Of a DNA stretch of 33,450 bases, positions 8,396-16,666 are shown in pieces (position 1 is the first letter of the stretch; every line of letters starts with the position of its first letter). Source of the stretch: Thiohalobacter sp. (lineage in GTDB: Bacteria > Pseudomonadota > Gammaproteobacteria > DSM-19610); the NCBI GenBank assembly GCA_026984835.1, contig JALSRI010000219.1, forward strand, positions 1-33,450, given 5' to 3'. The translations under genes and the position numbers were made by a program. The notes under the pieces were generated by a model that worked only from the letters and a program-made list of their open reading frames with translations, was not told the DNA's origin and did no database searches.

Positions 8396-8487
8396 CCCTG
8401 ATCGACCACCACGCGACAAAAAGATTCCCGGAGCGCATGGCGCATAGCTTACCGGCCACCGTCGCGCATTGCATCTTCGACCCGTCC

Positions 8488-8513
8488 AAAAAAAAGCGGC
8501 CCGGGTGGGCCGC
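8488..8513 (-). terminator. Rho-independent terminator of the EF-hand gene
   Basis: On the minus strand a 7-bp GC stem (GCGGCCC/GGGCCGC, loop ACCC) is followed directly by eight T. It lies 111 bases beyond the EF-hand stop codon and insulates that transcript from the tol cluster. Confidence 0.9.
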
Positions 8514-8539
8514 CGAAGTTCCCTTGGGGGGAAGCCAGT

Positions 8540-8605
8540 CTCCGGCGATCGCACCGGAGGCAGGAGGACAACAGGAGCCGGGAAAAGGTCAGAAAACCCG
8601 GCTCC
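8540..8605 (-). other. Two stem-loops in the 3' untranslated region of the EF-hand transcript
   Basis: A 9-bp stem (8574-8582 with 8597-8605, loop 14 bases) and a 6-bp stem (8540-8545 with 8554-8559, loop 8 bases) lie between the EF-hand stop codon and its terminator. Neither has a T-tract, so they are unlikely to be terminators. With the terminator stem they give a structured 3' tail of about 130 nt with three hairpins. Confidence 0.5.
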
Positions 8606-8624
8606 CCATTCACACCGGCACGAG

Positions 8625-8885
8625 CTACCGGCTGTCCGTGGCGGGCAGTGCCAGCGCGAATTCCTGCGGGTCGAGTAACCCGTCTGCATTCCTGTCTGCC
8701 GCGTCGAAAGCCTGCCTCGGACCCAACAGCGGTCCCGCCTCGACGCGGCTCACGTAACCGTTCCGGTCACTGTCGAGCTGCTGGAAGGTGATATTGTCCG
8801 CACTCGGGGATATGGCCTGACGATCGGCCCAGGCCATCGATATCACCACGCCCGATGCGACGGCAAACGCCAGTTTCCTGATCAC
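8625..8885 (-). CDS. Small secreted EF-hand calcium-binding protein
   Basis: An 86-residue protein with an N-terminal Sec signal peptide (residues 1-20, cut near AWA/DRQ). Two canonical 12-residue EF-hand loops follow: D38-x-D40-x-N42-G-Y44-x-S46-x-x-E49 and D64-x-N66-x-D68-G-L70-x-D72-x-x-E75. It is therefore predicted to bind two calcium ions in the periplasm or outside the cell; its biological role is unknown. The GTG at 8885 was chosen as start because AAAGGAGA stands 10 bases before it and the residues from there form a proper signal peptide; the frame further upstream does not. A sigma54 promoter starts transcription about 22 bases before this GTG. It lies immediately downstream of the GlrR-type regulator. 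Confidence 0.85.
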   Translation of the reverse strand: MIRKLAFAVASGVVISMAWADRQAISPSADNITFQQLDSDRNGYVSRVEAGPLLGPRQAFDAADRNADGLLDPQEFALALPATDSR

Positions 8886-8895
8886 GTGACGAAAA

Positions 8896-8903
8896 TCTCC
8901 TTT
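8896..8903 (-). promoter_or_regulatory. Ribosome binding site fixing the GTG start of the EF-hand gene
   Basis: AAAGGAGA on the minus strand stands 10 bases before GTG 8885. It lies just inside the predicted sigma54 transcript, which begins about 8907. Confidence 0.75.
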
Positions 8904-8918
8904 CTGCCCGTATGTCGA

Positions 8919-8932
8919 GCAAGCACCATGCC
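8919..8932 (-). promoter_or_regulatory. Sigma54 (-24/-12) promoter of the EF-hand gene
   Basis: The minus strand reads TGGCATGGTGCTTGC. GG (8931-8932) and GC (8919-8920) are separated by exactly 10 bases, and the surroundings match the consensus TGGCACG-N4-TTGC at all but one position. The start of transcription would fall near 8907, directly in front of the ribosome binding site. Confidence 0.8.
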
Positions 8933-9005
8933 ATCCGCCCGACACCGTGCCAACTCCTTGAATCGACACCGGTAACGAAGGCAGGCAGGGGTCCCGTCCG
9001 GCGTC

Positions 9006-9031
9006 AAACCGTCTCCATTCAGAGACAGTTT
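9006..9031. promoter_or_regulatory. GlrR-type operator, proximal (CGTC-N10-GACA within a longer palindrome)
   Basis: The ten-base arms 9006-9015 and 9022-9031 match at 9 of 10 positions around a 6-base centre. Inside them CGTC-N10-GACA differs at one base from TGTC-N10-GACA, the consensus known for GlrR of enterobacteria. Its centre lies about 111 bases upstream of the predicted sigma54 start of the EF-hand gene, a usual distance for an enhancer site. Confidence 0.7.
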
Positions 9032-9074
9032 AACGCTGGACGATGCCAAGCTATTGATAATTCAAGGATATAGC

Positions 9075-9092
9075 TGTCGCCACATGGGGACA
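9075..9092. promoter_or_regulatory. GlrR-type operator, distal (perfect TGTC-N10-GACA)
   Basis: TGTCGCCACATGGGGACA matches the known GlrR consensus exactly. The centre lies about 176 bases upstream of the predicted EF-hand transcription start and only a few bases beyond the stop codon of the regulator gene itself. Confidence 0.75.
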
Positions 9093-9094
9093 GA

Positions 9095-10462
9095 TCAGAC
9101 CCGGGCACCCTTGAACTGGGAGGGATTGAGGTGGTGCTTGTGCAGCAGCTTGTAGAACTCGGTGCGGTTGCGGCGGGCGATGCGGGCGGCCTGGCTGACG
9201 TTGCCGTTGGTCATCTGCAGCAGCTGGGTCAGATAGTCGCGCTCGAAGCGGCTGCGGGCGTCGGCGAAGGCCGGAATCTCGCACTGCGCCTCGTCGCGCA
9301 GGGCGCGCTGCACCAGGCTGGCCGGGATCAGGGATGTGGTGGTGAAGGCCACGGCCTGCTCGACCACGTTGTAGAGCTGGCGGACGTTGCCCGGCCAGGG
9401 CGCAGACAGCAGCACCTCCATGGCATCCGGCGCGAAACCCTTGACCGCCTTGCTCTCGGCATCCTGCAGGCTGTGCAGGAAATGGTTGGCGAGCAGCGGC
9501 ACGTCCTCGCGGCGCTCCGCCAGCGACGGCAGCTCCAGCGTCACCACGTTGAGGCGGTAGTAGAGGTCTTCCCGGAATTCCCGGGACTTGCGCAGCTCGT
9601 CGAGGTCGCGGTGGGTGGCCGAGATGACGCGCACATCGACCGGCACGCTGCGGGTCGAGCCGACCGGCCGCACGCTGCGCTCCTGCAGGGCGCGCAGCAG
9701 CTTGACCTGGAAGCTGAGCGGCATGTCGCCCACCTCGTCCAGGAACAGCGTGCCACCGGCGGCGGCCTGGAACAGGCCCTCGTGATCGCGGGTGGCGCCG
9801 GTGAAGGAGCCCTTGGCGTGGCCGAAGAACTCGGATTCGAACAGGGCCTCCGGGATGGCGCTGCAGTTGACCGCCACGAACTCGCCCCCGGCGCGCGGGC
9901 TGGCCCTGTGGATGGCGCGCGCCAGCAGCTCCTTGCCGGTGCCGCTGGCGCCGTGGATGAGCACGCTGGCGTTGCTGGCCGCAATCAGTCGCGCCTGGCC
10001 CAGCAGGTCCTCCATCTTGGCGCTGCGGGTCACGATGCCCTGACGCCATTGGGCGACATCATCCACCTCGCTGCGCTCGTGCTGCTCGCCGGTGACCCGC
10101 AGGGCGCGGTCCACCTGGTCGAGGAGGATCTTGCTGTCGAAGGGCTTGGTCAGGTAGCCGAACACCCCGCGGCTGGTCGCCGCGACGGCGTCCGGGATGG
10201 TGCCATGGGCGGTCAGGATCAGCACCGGCAGGGCCGGGCTGCGCTGGTGGATCTCGTCGAACAGCATCATGCCGTCCATGCCATCCATGCGTAAGTCCGT
10301 GATTACCAAGTGGGGTTGAAAGGTCGGTAGCTGGGCGAGCGCCTTCTCGCCGCTCTCGACGGCGAGCACCTCGTAGCCCACGGCGGACAACCGCATGGAC
10401 AGCAGCCGCAGCAGGGCCGGATCATCATCAACAACCAGTACACGGTAACGACAGGCGCTCAT
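9095..10462 (-). CDS. glrR: Sigma54-dependent response regulator, GlrR/QseF type
   Basis: A 455-residue NtrC-family regulator with three domains. The receiver (about 6-120) has the acidic pair DDD at 12-14, phospho-acceptor D56 (VITDLRMDG) and KPFD. The AAA+ domain has Walker A GASGTGKE (171-178), the sigma54-contacting loop GSFTGA (218-223, Ala replaced by Ser in GAFTGA) and Walker [11 protein letters not shown]. The C-terminal Fis-type helix-turn-helix spans about 405-445. It activates sigma54 promoters when phosphorylated. The gene order kinase-QseG-regulator on this strand equals the E. coli glrK-qseG-glrR operon, which supports the assignment over other NtrC-like proteins. ATG 10462 follows GGGGAGAGAGA, 18 bases behind the lipoprotein gene. 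Confidence 0.88.
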
Positions 10463-10480: not shown

Positions 10481-10993
10481 CTACGGCTTGGTCCGGTCCT
10501 GAATACTTTGCTCGATCGAGGTCAGCTCTTGCAACTGTCGTTCCAACTCCTCGATGCGGGCCCTGGCATCCTTGAGTTCCTTGCGCAGGGTGGTGATCTT
10601 CTCACCGGCCCAGAGGCGTTCGCCGATCGACTGCTCGAGCAGGGCGGCCAGGGCCCGGGCGCTGTCGCTGGCCTTGCTGCGATCCATGTCCTTGATCAGC
10701 TGCAGGGCGCGCGACTGGTCGCGCACGGGCTTCTTGCCCTCCCCCAGCAGCAGCGCCAGCCGCAGGCGGGAGCGCGGTCCCGGATCGTTCTCGAAGTCGA
10801 GCTCCCGCGCGCGCAGGGTGCGCTGCAGGGCGTCGTCCGGCATCGACAGGGTCCGCTGCCATTCCTCCAGCCAGTAGGCGGCGTCGTCGATGCGCACGGC
10901 GACCGGCACCGGCCCTTGCGAGCGCTGCAGCGACAACGAGGTGCAGCCGCCGAGCAGCACCAGGACAGCCAGTATGGAAAGGGTGTTACGCAA
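10481..10993 (-). CDS. qseG: QseG-like lipoprotein
   Basis: A 170-residue lipoprotein. The signal sequence ends in the lipobox LGGC with C17 as lipidated residue. The C-terminal half (about 120-165) is a coiled coil of Lys/Arg/Glu/Leu heptads. In E. coli, QseG is an outer-membrane lipoprotein that contacts the periplasmic part of the kinase GlrK and is needed for its activity. The start was placed at TTG 10993: it directly precedes the signal peptide, a GGAG lies ten bases before it, and it overlaps the end of the kinase gene by 8 bases. Upstream in-frame codons would add a Cys/Arg-rich stretch that destroys the signal peptide. Sequence identity to QseG is low and the name rests partly on position. 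Confidence 0.75.
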   Translation of the reverse strand: MRNTLSILAVLVLLGGCTSLSLQRSQGPVPVAVRIDDAAYWLEEWQRTLSMPDDALQRTLRARELDFENDPGPRSRLRLALLLGEGKKPVRDQSRALQLIKDMDRSKASDSARALAALLEQSIGERLWAGEKITTLRKELKDARARIEELERQLQELTSIEQSIQDRTKP

Positions 10994-12434
10994 CGTTTCT
11001 GCGCTCCGTCTGCAGGGGCAAGCGGACCTGAAGACAGGCCCCGGCACGGCCCGGGGAGGCCACTTCGATGGTGCCGCCGTGCGCCTGCGCGTATTCGCGG
11101 GCGATGGACAGGCCCAGCCCGGTGCCGCGCACGTGGCTGTTGGCGGCCGACTGGCCCTGGTAGAAGGCGTCGAACACCCGTGCCCGCTCGCTTTCCGGAA
11201 TGCCCGGGCCGGCGTCCTCCACCCGGATCACGGCCTGGCCGTCCTCCAGGTCCAATGATACCCCCAGGCGCCCGCCGTCGGGCGAAAACTTTATGGCGTT
11301 GGAAAGCAGGTTGTCCACCAGGGTGCGCAGCTTGTCGGCGTCTGCCTCCATCATCACCGGCTGCAGCGCCACCTCCGGCACCAGCTGGCGCGCCAGGATC
11401 GCCACCCGGTGGTCCGCCAGTACCGATTCGATGAGCTCATGCAGGGCCAACCGGCCCGTCTGCAGGGACGACATGCGGGAACTGGCGAGGTTGAAGTCGA
11501 GCAGGTCCTCGATGAGTTTCTGCAGTTGCAGGCTGTTGTCGCGCAGGATGGCGGCAATCTCGCGTTGCTGGCTGTTCAGGCTACCGACCACTTCCTCGCC
11601 CAGAAGTTCGGCGCATTCCCGCACGGCGGTCAGGGGAGTTTTCAGTTCGTGCGAGATATGGCGCAGGAAGCGCGCCTTCTCCTGTTCCACTTCCAGGAGC
11701 CGTGTGCGCATCCAGTCCAGGCGTTCGCCGAGCTGCTCCAGGTCGCGCGGGCCGAGGATGAAGGCCGGGCGGGAGAAATCGCCATCGCCCAGGCGCCGGA
11801 TGGCCTGGTCCAGCTGACGGATGGGGCGCGCCACCAGCCAGGCGAAGAAACCGGCCATGACCAGCGCCGCCGGCACCAGCGCCAGCGCCAGCGCCAGCAT
11901 GATGCGCTGCACGCGGATACCGGCCGCGTCCAGGCGCTCCACCTCGCGCTCCACCAGCCGGCGGTTGTCGATCAGCATCTTCTGCGCCACCTTGGCCAGT
12001 TCGGCGAACCGCTCCACCGCCGCCGCCGCCTCGGGGGCGTCGTGGCCGACCGTCTCCAGCACCCCGCTGATCTCCTGTTCGGTCTGCTGCAGGCGCACCA
12101 GCCGTTCCCGCTGCAGCGGCGACAGATTGATCTGGGACAGGCGCCGGACGATATCCTTGAACTGGCCGTGTTTCTCGCGGTACACGCCCAGCAGGGCCGG
12201 CTCGCCCACGACCAGGTACTGGCGGGCGCTGCGCTCCATGTCGGTGATGGTTTCCGCCAGCAGCTGGTTGCTCTGGGTGGCGCGCACCATTTCGAACAGC
12301 GCATGCTGGCCCTGGGCGACCAGCCGGTCGACCGAAAAGGTGGCGAACAGCAGCGCCGCCACCAGCGGCACCGCCACCAGCGCGAAGCCCACCAGGATCA
12401 GGCGGCGAATCGATTTGGGACGGACAATACGCAC
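10986..12434 (-). CDS. glrK: Membrane sensor histidine kinase, GlrK/QseE type
   Basis: A 482-residue kinase. Membrane segments at about 12-32 and 178-201 enclose a helical periplasmic sensor domain of about 145 residues. A HAMP linker (202-250) is followed by the H-box FLRHISHELKTPLTAVRE with H262, the N-box DNLLSNAIKFS (374-384), the G1 box EDAGPGIP and the G2 box GTGLGLSI. It should phosphorylate D56 of the GlrR-type partner. The frame is open far upstream across the antisense side of the glycerol-kinase-like gene; that part is GC-bias artefact. GTG 12434 was chosen because it sits right before the first membrane helix; no good ribosome binding site is seen, so the start is less sure than the gene. 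Confidence 0.88.
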   Translation of the reverse strand: MRIVRPKSIRRLILVGFALVAVPLVAALLFATFSVDRLVAQGQHALFEMVRATQSNQLLAETITDMERSARQYLVVGEPALLGVYREKHGQFKDIVRRLSQINLSPLQRERLVRLQQTEQEISGVLETVGHDAPEAAAAVERFAELAKVAQKMLIDNRRLVEREVERLDAAGIRVQRIMLALALALVPAALVMAGFFAWLVARPIRQLDQAIRRLGDGDFSRPAFILGPRDLEQLGERLDWMRTRLLEVEQEKARFLRHISHELKTPLTAVRECAELLGEEVVGSLNSQQREIAAILRDNSLQLQKLIEDLLDFNLASSRMSSLQTGRLALHELIESVLADHRVAILARQLVPEVALQPVMMEADADKLRTLVDNLLSNAIKFSPDGGRLGVSLDLEDGQAVIRVEDAGPGIPESERARVFDAFYQGQSAANSHVRGTGLGLSIAREYAQAHGGTIEVASPGRAGACLQVRLPLQTERRNVA

Positions 12435-12539
12435 GGGAATCTGCCGGTTGGGAACCGGGGTATTGGGCCACAGTTGCCACCGCCTTGCAAAGCCGCCACG
12501 ACGCTGGCGCGGCACCGGAGAACCCGCTAGGCTCGCCCC

Positions 12540-15918: not shown

Positions 15919-16578
15919 CTAGGCTGCCCTGCGCCCGCGCAGCGACAGGCCCGCCAGTCCGGCCAGACCGGAACCGAACAACCACAGCGCGGCCGGAACC
16001 GGCACGAAGGTAACCACCAGGTCCATGCCCATGCTCGTGGTGTTGGTGTCGAACATACCCGTATTGGGATCCGCCGTACCGTCGGCACCCCACAAGGTCA
16101 GCGAGCTGTAGCTGCCGGTGGTGCTGTTGGCGGTGTAGCCGGCGCTCGAAGTCACGTAGTTGATGTCATAGAAACTCAGGGTGGCATCGGTCAGGCCGTT
16201 GCCCAGCGCAGTGGCGTCGAAGCTCCAGCTGATGGTGCCGATCAGGCCACCATCGTTGCCGTTGAATGCGCCAGCGGCCAGGTTGCCGGTACCTGTCGCG
16301 GTACCGATGGGAGCCGTCAGGCCAGCGTCGCTGAACAGGTCGACGCTGAGCGAGAAGGCGCCGCTGACCGGGTCCCAGGAGCCGCCACCGCCGTTCATGC
16401 TGAACCAGGCCAGAATGGACCCGTACTGGCCCTGCGCGCTGTTGGCGGTATGAAAGACGTTGTGCTGAAAGGGGCCGCTGCTTTCCTGCGGTGTGGCGGC
16501 GATGGCAATGGACGCGGCATCTGCCTTGCCGCCAACCAGCGTGGCGGCCAGCAACGCACAGAACAGTCTTGTTTTCAT
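15919..16578 (-). CDS. VPxPA-CTERM (PEP-CTERM family) exosortase substrate
   Basis: A 219-residue secreted protein. The N-terminus is a Sec signal peptide (about 1-21, ending KADA/AS). The middle is rich in Gly, Ser, Thr, Asn and Asp with little charge and is probably beta-rich. The last 28 residues have the sorting-signal layout: VPVPAALWLFGSG, a hydrophobic stretch (GLAGLAGLSL) and RGRR at the end, as in the VPLPA-CTERM variant of PEP-CTERM proteins. Such proteins are processed by an exosortase and attached to the surface or exopolysaccharide; no exosortase gene lies in the window. ATG 16578 follows GGAGAAGGCC. It has a sigma54 promoter. The function of the mature part is not recognisable. 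Confidence 0.85.
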   Translation of the reverse strand: MKTRLFCALLAATLVGGKADAASIAIAATPQESSGPFQHNVFHTANSAQGQYGSILAWFSMNGGGGSWDPVSGAFSLSVDLFSDAGLTAPIGTATGTGNLAAGAFNGNDGGLIGTISWSFDATALGNGLTDATLSFYDINYVTSSAGYTANSTTGSYSSLTLWGADGTADPNTGMFDTNTTSMGMDLVVTFVPVPAALWLFGSGLAGLAGLSLRGRRAA

Positions 16579-16652
16579 GGCCTTCTCCGATTTTCCTGGG
16601 CCCCGGTCGTCGGGGTGGTCGCTCAATGGGGAACGATGCCTGACTAAAACAG

Positions 16653-16666
16653 GCAACTTCCGTGCC
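16653..16666 (-). promoter_or_regulatory. Sigma54 (-24/-12) promoter of the VPxPA-CTERM gene
   Basis: The minus strand reads GGCACGGAAGTTGC, with GG and GC 10 bases apart and the full GGCACG-N4-TTGC core. Transcription would start near 16641 and give a leader of about 62 nt before ATG 16578. Confidence 0.8.

Follow-up and report, generated by a model that had tools for sequence, protein, structure and literature searches.

The stretch of DNA analyzed here (33,450 nucleotides, hereafter the window) makes up a single contig in a gammaproteobacterial genome of 2.87 Mb assigned to Thiohalobacter sp. On its minus strand lie, in order, genes for a sensor kinase, a coiled-coil lipoprotein, an NtrC-type response regulator and an exported EF-hand protein, followed by ybgC-tolQRAB-pal (the last group named by eye). 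The promoter elements upstream of the EF-hand gene are all found downstream of glrR and on the same strand as glrR. The features are:

10986-12470, minus strand: glrK/qseE-like sensor histidine kinase, 5' end approximate (Pfam HATPase_c 4.6e-28, HisKA 6.3e-16, HAMP 5.9e-10)
10481-11047, minus strand: qseG-like lipoprotein with a lipobox (LVLLGGC) and a C-terminal coiled coil, assigned by its position between the kinase and glrR
9095-10462, minus strand: glrR/qseF response regulator (Pfam REC, sigma54 AAA+, HTH_8)
9075-9092, minus strand: distal GlrR-type site UAS1, TGTCCCCATGTGGCGACA, perfect, centred at about -176, directly past the glrR stop
9047-9059, minus strand: IHF-like site TATCAATAGCTTG, a perfect match to WATCAANNNNTTR, between UAS1 and UAS2
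9010-9027, minus strand: proximal GlrR-type site UAS2, TGTCTCTGAATGGAGACG, one mismatch, centred at about -111, the core of a 26-base palindrome (9006-9031)
8919-8933, minus strand: sigma54 -24/-12 element TGGCATGGTGCTTGC, perfect, with a predicted start at about 8907
8897-8902, minus strand: ribosome binding site AAGGAG
8625-8885, minus strand: exported EF-hand protein of 86 amino acids, GTG start at 8885, loops DSDRNGYVSRVE and DRNADGLLDPQE, signal peptide by eye
8488-8533, minus strand: 3' module, a small CCC/GGG hairpin (8519-8533) and an intrinsic terminator (8488-8513; about 8495-8514 in the terminator scan)

The kinase, lipoprotein and regulator of the window stand in the gene order qseE-qseG-qseF, with the glrK/qseE-like kinase heading the cluster as it does in qseEGF, which occurs widely among the Gamma- and Betaproteobacteria (PMC12691602). 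The lipoprotein matched no Pfam or NCBIfam family at cut-off in a profile search. In the case of the regulator, the REC, sigma54 AAA+ and HTH regions are all present, HTH_8 falling slightly under its Pfam cut-off, and the top NCBIfam model is GlrR (NF011695, 623.7 bits, E 1.6e-187), with the runner-up at 403 bits. Because this score lies under the curated cut-off of 763, which is that of an equivalog model, we term the protein a GlrR-like orthologue outside the enterobacterial core. The genome also encodes rpoN (E 1.2e-71).

A first-pass annotation of the window had placed a -24/-12 element in the leader of the EF-hand gene with a start just before the ribosome binding site, and both the element and the predicted start position agree with this, with the element extending to 8933 rather than ending at 8932. 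It had also described a perfect TGTC-N10-GACA and a near-perfect copy within the palindrome, centred about 176 and 111 bases from the start; both are present, 65 bases apart, with measured centres at 176.5 and 111.5 bases before the predicted start. The position of UAS1 is kept in the family and in the class, and UAS2, when read against TGTN12ACA, is one letter off (TGT...ACG). No sigma70-type promoter was called within 8400-9150.

The EF-hand protein matches Pfam EF-hand_5 (2.8e-9) and has two canonical 12-residue Ca2+ loops. Its reading frame is under purifying selection, with a median pN/pS of 0.39 and a highest value of 0.67 over 66 pairs, and the copy in the window diverges more than its relatives (pN about 0.4). 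Structure prediction gives a paired helix-loop-helix with pLDDT of 83-91 over residues 31-80, and the top Foldseek matches of the model are EF-hand and EH domains, at E values of only about 0.03. The exported protein probably binds Ca2+, either periplasmically or on the cell surface, as one component of the envelope response.

The TGTC-N10-GACA motif is expected 0.37 times by chance in the window, and it occurs at 60 places genome-wide compared with 63 for the reversed control, i.e., it is not enriched. Since the motif alone shows no excess over its reversed pattern, we put all weight on the combination of elements, their spacing and their conservation. The -24/-12 element is not due to chance, the pattern giving 18 matches in 2.87 Mb and its reversed control only one, and the combination of UAS and -24/-12 element with its spacing is far from chance as well. 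At a combined mismatch score of at most 4, the arrangement follows glrR at 37 of 91 GlrR-orthologue loci, whereas the 57 control loci, which belong to other NtrC-type regulators, and the 91 antisense controls give no case at all, even at a score of 5. The 91 loci were drawn from many families and some are non-independent, for example L072 and L151, which are identical in sequence. The full arrangement is missing downstream in over half of the sampled glrR orthologues.

Within the family, an intact EF-hand gene follows glrR in 12 of 20 genomes, and 10 of those 12 have, at fixed spacing, a -24/-12 element together with one or more UAS, each with no more than one mismatch. The two exceptions are L050, where the UAS is accompanied by a weak promoter (two mismatches), and L049, which has a UAS only. 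Loss of the sites where the gene pair is kept had been named beforehand as the observation that would speak against the proposal, and it is not the pattern seen in these relatives. The distance between UAS1 and UAS2 is 65-66 bases at nearly all family loci where both sites are recognizable, and at 17 of 36 loci the best IHF-like match falls on the same strand at spacer position 18-22 (binomial p 3e-12), though many of these matches are weak, with mostly unremarkable per-locus p-values, and position alone is informative. The remaining eight of the 20 family genomes lack the EF-hand gene or carry it in broken form, and we therefore regard the gene as dispensable.

Beyond the family, exported EF-hand genes lie under the same arrangement beside glrR in a Thiobacillus MAG (L069) and at L153, L169, L178, L183 and L197. 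The gene in this position encodes an EF-hand combined with a BON domain at L189 and L191, BON alone in Chromobacterium (L071) and an acyltransferase-like protein at L146, and elsewhere the promoter precedes short units containing no gene (L044, L047, L051, L052, L160, L166, L171 and others). The promoter thus keeps its position, and its product varies with a bias toward the envelope. A class-wide search of 369 genomes with a tandem UAS plus TGGCAY pattern, blind to both glrR and EF-hands, placed exported EF-hand genes behind seven of about 28 matches with an acceptable -12 element, in several families (L231, L232, L241, L244, L245 and L248, and L220 in the genome of the window). A few matches were obtained with a control pattern as well, and some of the class-wide matches are therefore due to chance. 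Among the remaining matches are genes for lipoproteins, for an exported protein rich in histidine and for glycoside-hydrolase-like proteins (named by eye).

A second, unlinked exported EF-hand gene in the genome of the window (contig C90) lies behind a perfect -24/-12 element with a UAS-like site. Its counterparts in the family genomes have the -24/-12 element, and most have a TGT-N12-ACA-like site at a distance of about 87 bases upstream, matching that of the proximal UAS at the glrR-adjacent promoter. Other types of EF-hand gene in these genomes (L265, L267, L270, L281 and L282) have neither a -24/-12 element nor a GlrR-like site. The genome of the window has only about three EF-hand genes, of which two are under these promoters, and the GlrR/sigma54 system probably drives this second gene as well.

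We consider it very probable that 8907-9092 constitutes a GlrR (QseF)-dependent sigma54 promoter of the exported EF-hand gene at 8625-8885. The first-pass annotation had proposed the EF-hand gene as a GlrR/sigma54 target, and comparative sequence supports this through conservation in the family, the second EF-hand gene and the occurrences in other families of the class. From the sites, their spacing, the gene and its conservation, all of which are seen directly, we infer a mechanism in which phosphorylated GlrR would bind both sites across their 65-base spacing, IHF would bend the intervening DNA, and GlrR would remodel the sigma54 polymerase at 8919-8933. Transcription would then run from about 8907 through a short leader, continue across the EF-hand gene and end at the terminator (8488-8513).

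The likeliest of the alternatives treats the unit chiefly as a glmY-like regulatory RNA, or as an mRNA with a 3' end that functions as an sRNA, the EF-hand frame being optional cargo. An sRNA is the classic GlrR target, and most family loci share the two-hairpin 3' layout whether or not they carry the EF-hand gene. At L044, L047, L051 and L052 the promoter and terminator are kept without an EF-hand frame, in units of 130-290 nt, and the final 113 nt up to the terminator form a block with three differences between L051 and L052, compared with 35 in 200 positions of the promoter flank (Fisher p 5e-5). The purifying selection on the EF-hand gene and its recurrence in distant lineages speak against an RNA-first reading, as does the restriction of the 113-nt block to two genomes. 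No Rfam family reached threshold in the window or the relatives, and GlmY/GlmZ in particular gave no match there. Among the loci lacking an intact frame, L043 and L053 have the appearance of genes in decay, and at L048 the promoter is lost as well, so that these loci look like relics. Covariation in the terminator hairpin was not counted in favor of an sRNA, because any terminator would covary. On balance, we regard the RNA-first alternative as unlikely.

The conserved 3' block of L051/L052 (also seen at L284), which sits in a gene-less GlrR/sigma54 unit with flanks 80-85% identical, marks a candidate GlrR-controlled sRNA, and it points to a functional RNA within that genus, as a lead rather than a finding. 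The idea that the 3' module is a widespread sRNA was rejected, as the block was not found outside that genus. The first-pass annotation had suggested that a calcium-binding target may stand in for a glmY-like RNA or accompany one; the EF-hand target is supported, and the setting aside of an RNA needs qualifying, in that the promoter of some relatives appears to drive a short gene-less unit. A bolder and rather doubtful extension is that the glrR-adjacent promoter is an ancient output slot whose product switches between an exported EF-hand protein and an sRNA, and that in some lineages the EF-hand mRNA carries a functional 3' sRNA, such that a single GlrR-controlled transcript would yield an envelope protein that binds calcium together with an RNA that regulates the envelope.

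GlrR-dependent control of the EF-hand gene also has to be weighed against a sigma54-dependent promoter that is served by another enhancer-binding protein with a similar site. The genome encodes several NtrC-type regulators, and site and regulator are matched by position and resemblance; the arrangement nevertheless adjoins glrR in many families and none of the control loci of other such regulators, and the upstream sites fit the published QseF consensus (PMC6075780, PMC8745638), which makes this alternative very improbable. That the palindrome (a 10-base inverted repeat after glrR on the same strand) is merely a hairpin of the glrR transcript, with the EF-hand gene expressed by read-through from the glrR operon, is scarcely credible, since no T-run follows it, the terminator scan did not call it, and the feature kept in relatives is TGTC-N10-GACA, with its distance to the -24/-12 element held constant, rather than a hairpin stem.

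The closest known system is the enterobacterial GlrR/QseF-sigma54 control of glmY (and rpoE). QseF activates both genes via sigma54, with IHF and TGTN12ACA sites (PMC6075780), and in Proteus a TGTCN10GACA consensus and two putative IHF sites have been given (PMC8745638). The window resembles this system in the type of regulator, the gene cluster, the operator, the IHF sites, the sigma54 promoter and the location of a target adjoining the cluster. Unlike glmY in the Enterobacteriaceae, the target in the window lies downstream of glrR rather than upstream of glrK, it has two sites instead of three, its product is an exported EF-hand protein instead of an sRNA, and no overlapping sigma70 promoter was detected.

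Among EF-hand proteins, the CaBP of Caulobacter vibrioides is likewise a small exported periplasmic protein tied to the envelope and to stress regulation, but it has three EF-hands and is linked to the ECF sigma factor SigV, and the accessible portion of that report mentions neither GlrR nor a sigma54 site (PMC13171946). An RpoN-affected EF-hand gene of Bradyrhizobium DOA9 has a -24/-12 element (TGGCACGGCGCTTGC) and lower expression in an rpoN mutant, though in an Alphaproteobacterium and with no GlrR link reported in the text available (PMC13207237). Pseudomonas aeruginosa EfhP is a bacterial EF-hand calcium sensor, again with no GlrR link in the available part of the source (PMC11559002). 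Our literature search found no paper joining GlrR/QseF and an EF-hand, and as far as the literature searched goes, GlrK/GlrR targets are known only in enterics.

Judged by comparative sequence, exported EF-hand genes are a new predicted target class of the known regulator GlrR. The conserved link would give GlrK/GlrR a protein output common to many lineages, and it suggests that envelope calcium is part of what the system manages; GlrK/GlrR and the EF-hand protein may have a role in calcium handling. The EF-hand genes offer concrete assay targets in culturable relatives, and the fixed UAS-IHF-UAS layout should make the regulon predictable elsewhere.

Several further promoters and genes were noted. 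In the genome of the window, sigma54 promoters with tandem GlrR-type sites precede an exported protein (L023, G000:C158 at about 44324) and a membrane protein (L026, G000:C227 at about 2039), both without a Pfam match. Another sigma54 promoter (L020) likewise lies ahead of an exported protein. At L186 (G125), the slot beside glrR is occupied by mdoG, for periplasmic glucan synthesis (PF04349). At L225 (G301), a tandem-UAS sigma54 promoter precedes an exported, strongly histidine-rich repeat protein (HKDHKMGDHKDGKMGDHK), metal-binding by appearance. GlrR-type tandem promoters stand before PEP-CTERM/exosortase-associated acyltransferase-like genes at L072/L151, L146 and L235 (by eye), and the window itself encodes, at 15919-16656 on the minus strand, an exported protein ending in a PEP-CTERM-like sorting tail (VPVPAALWLFGSGLAGLAGLSLRGRRAA).
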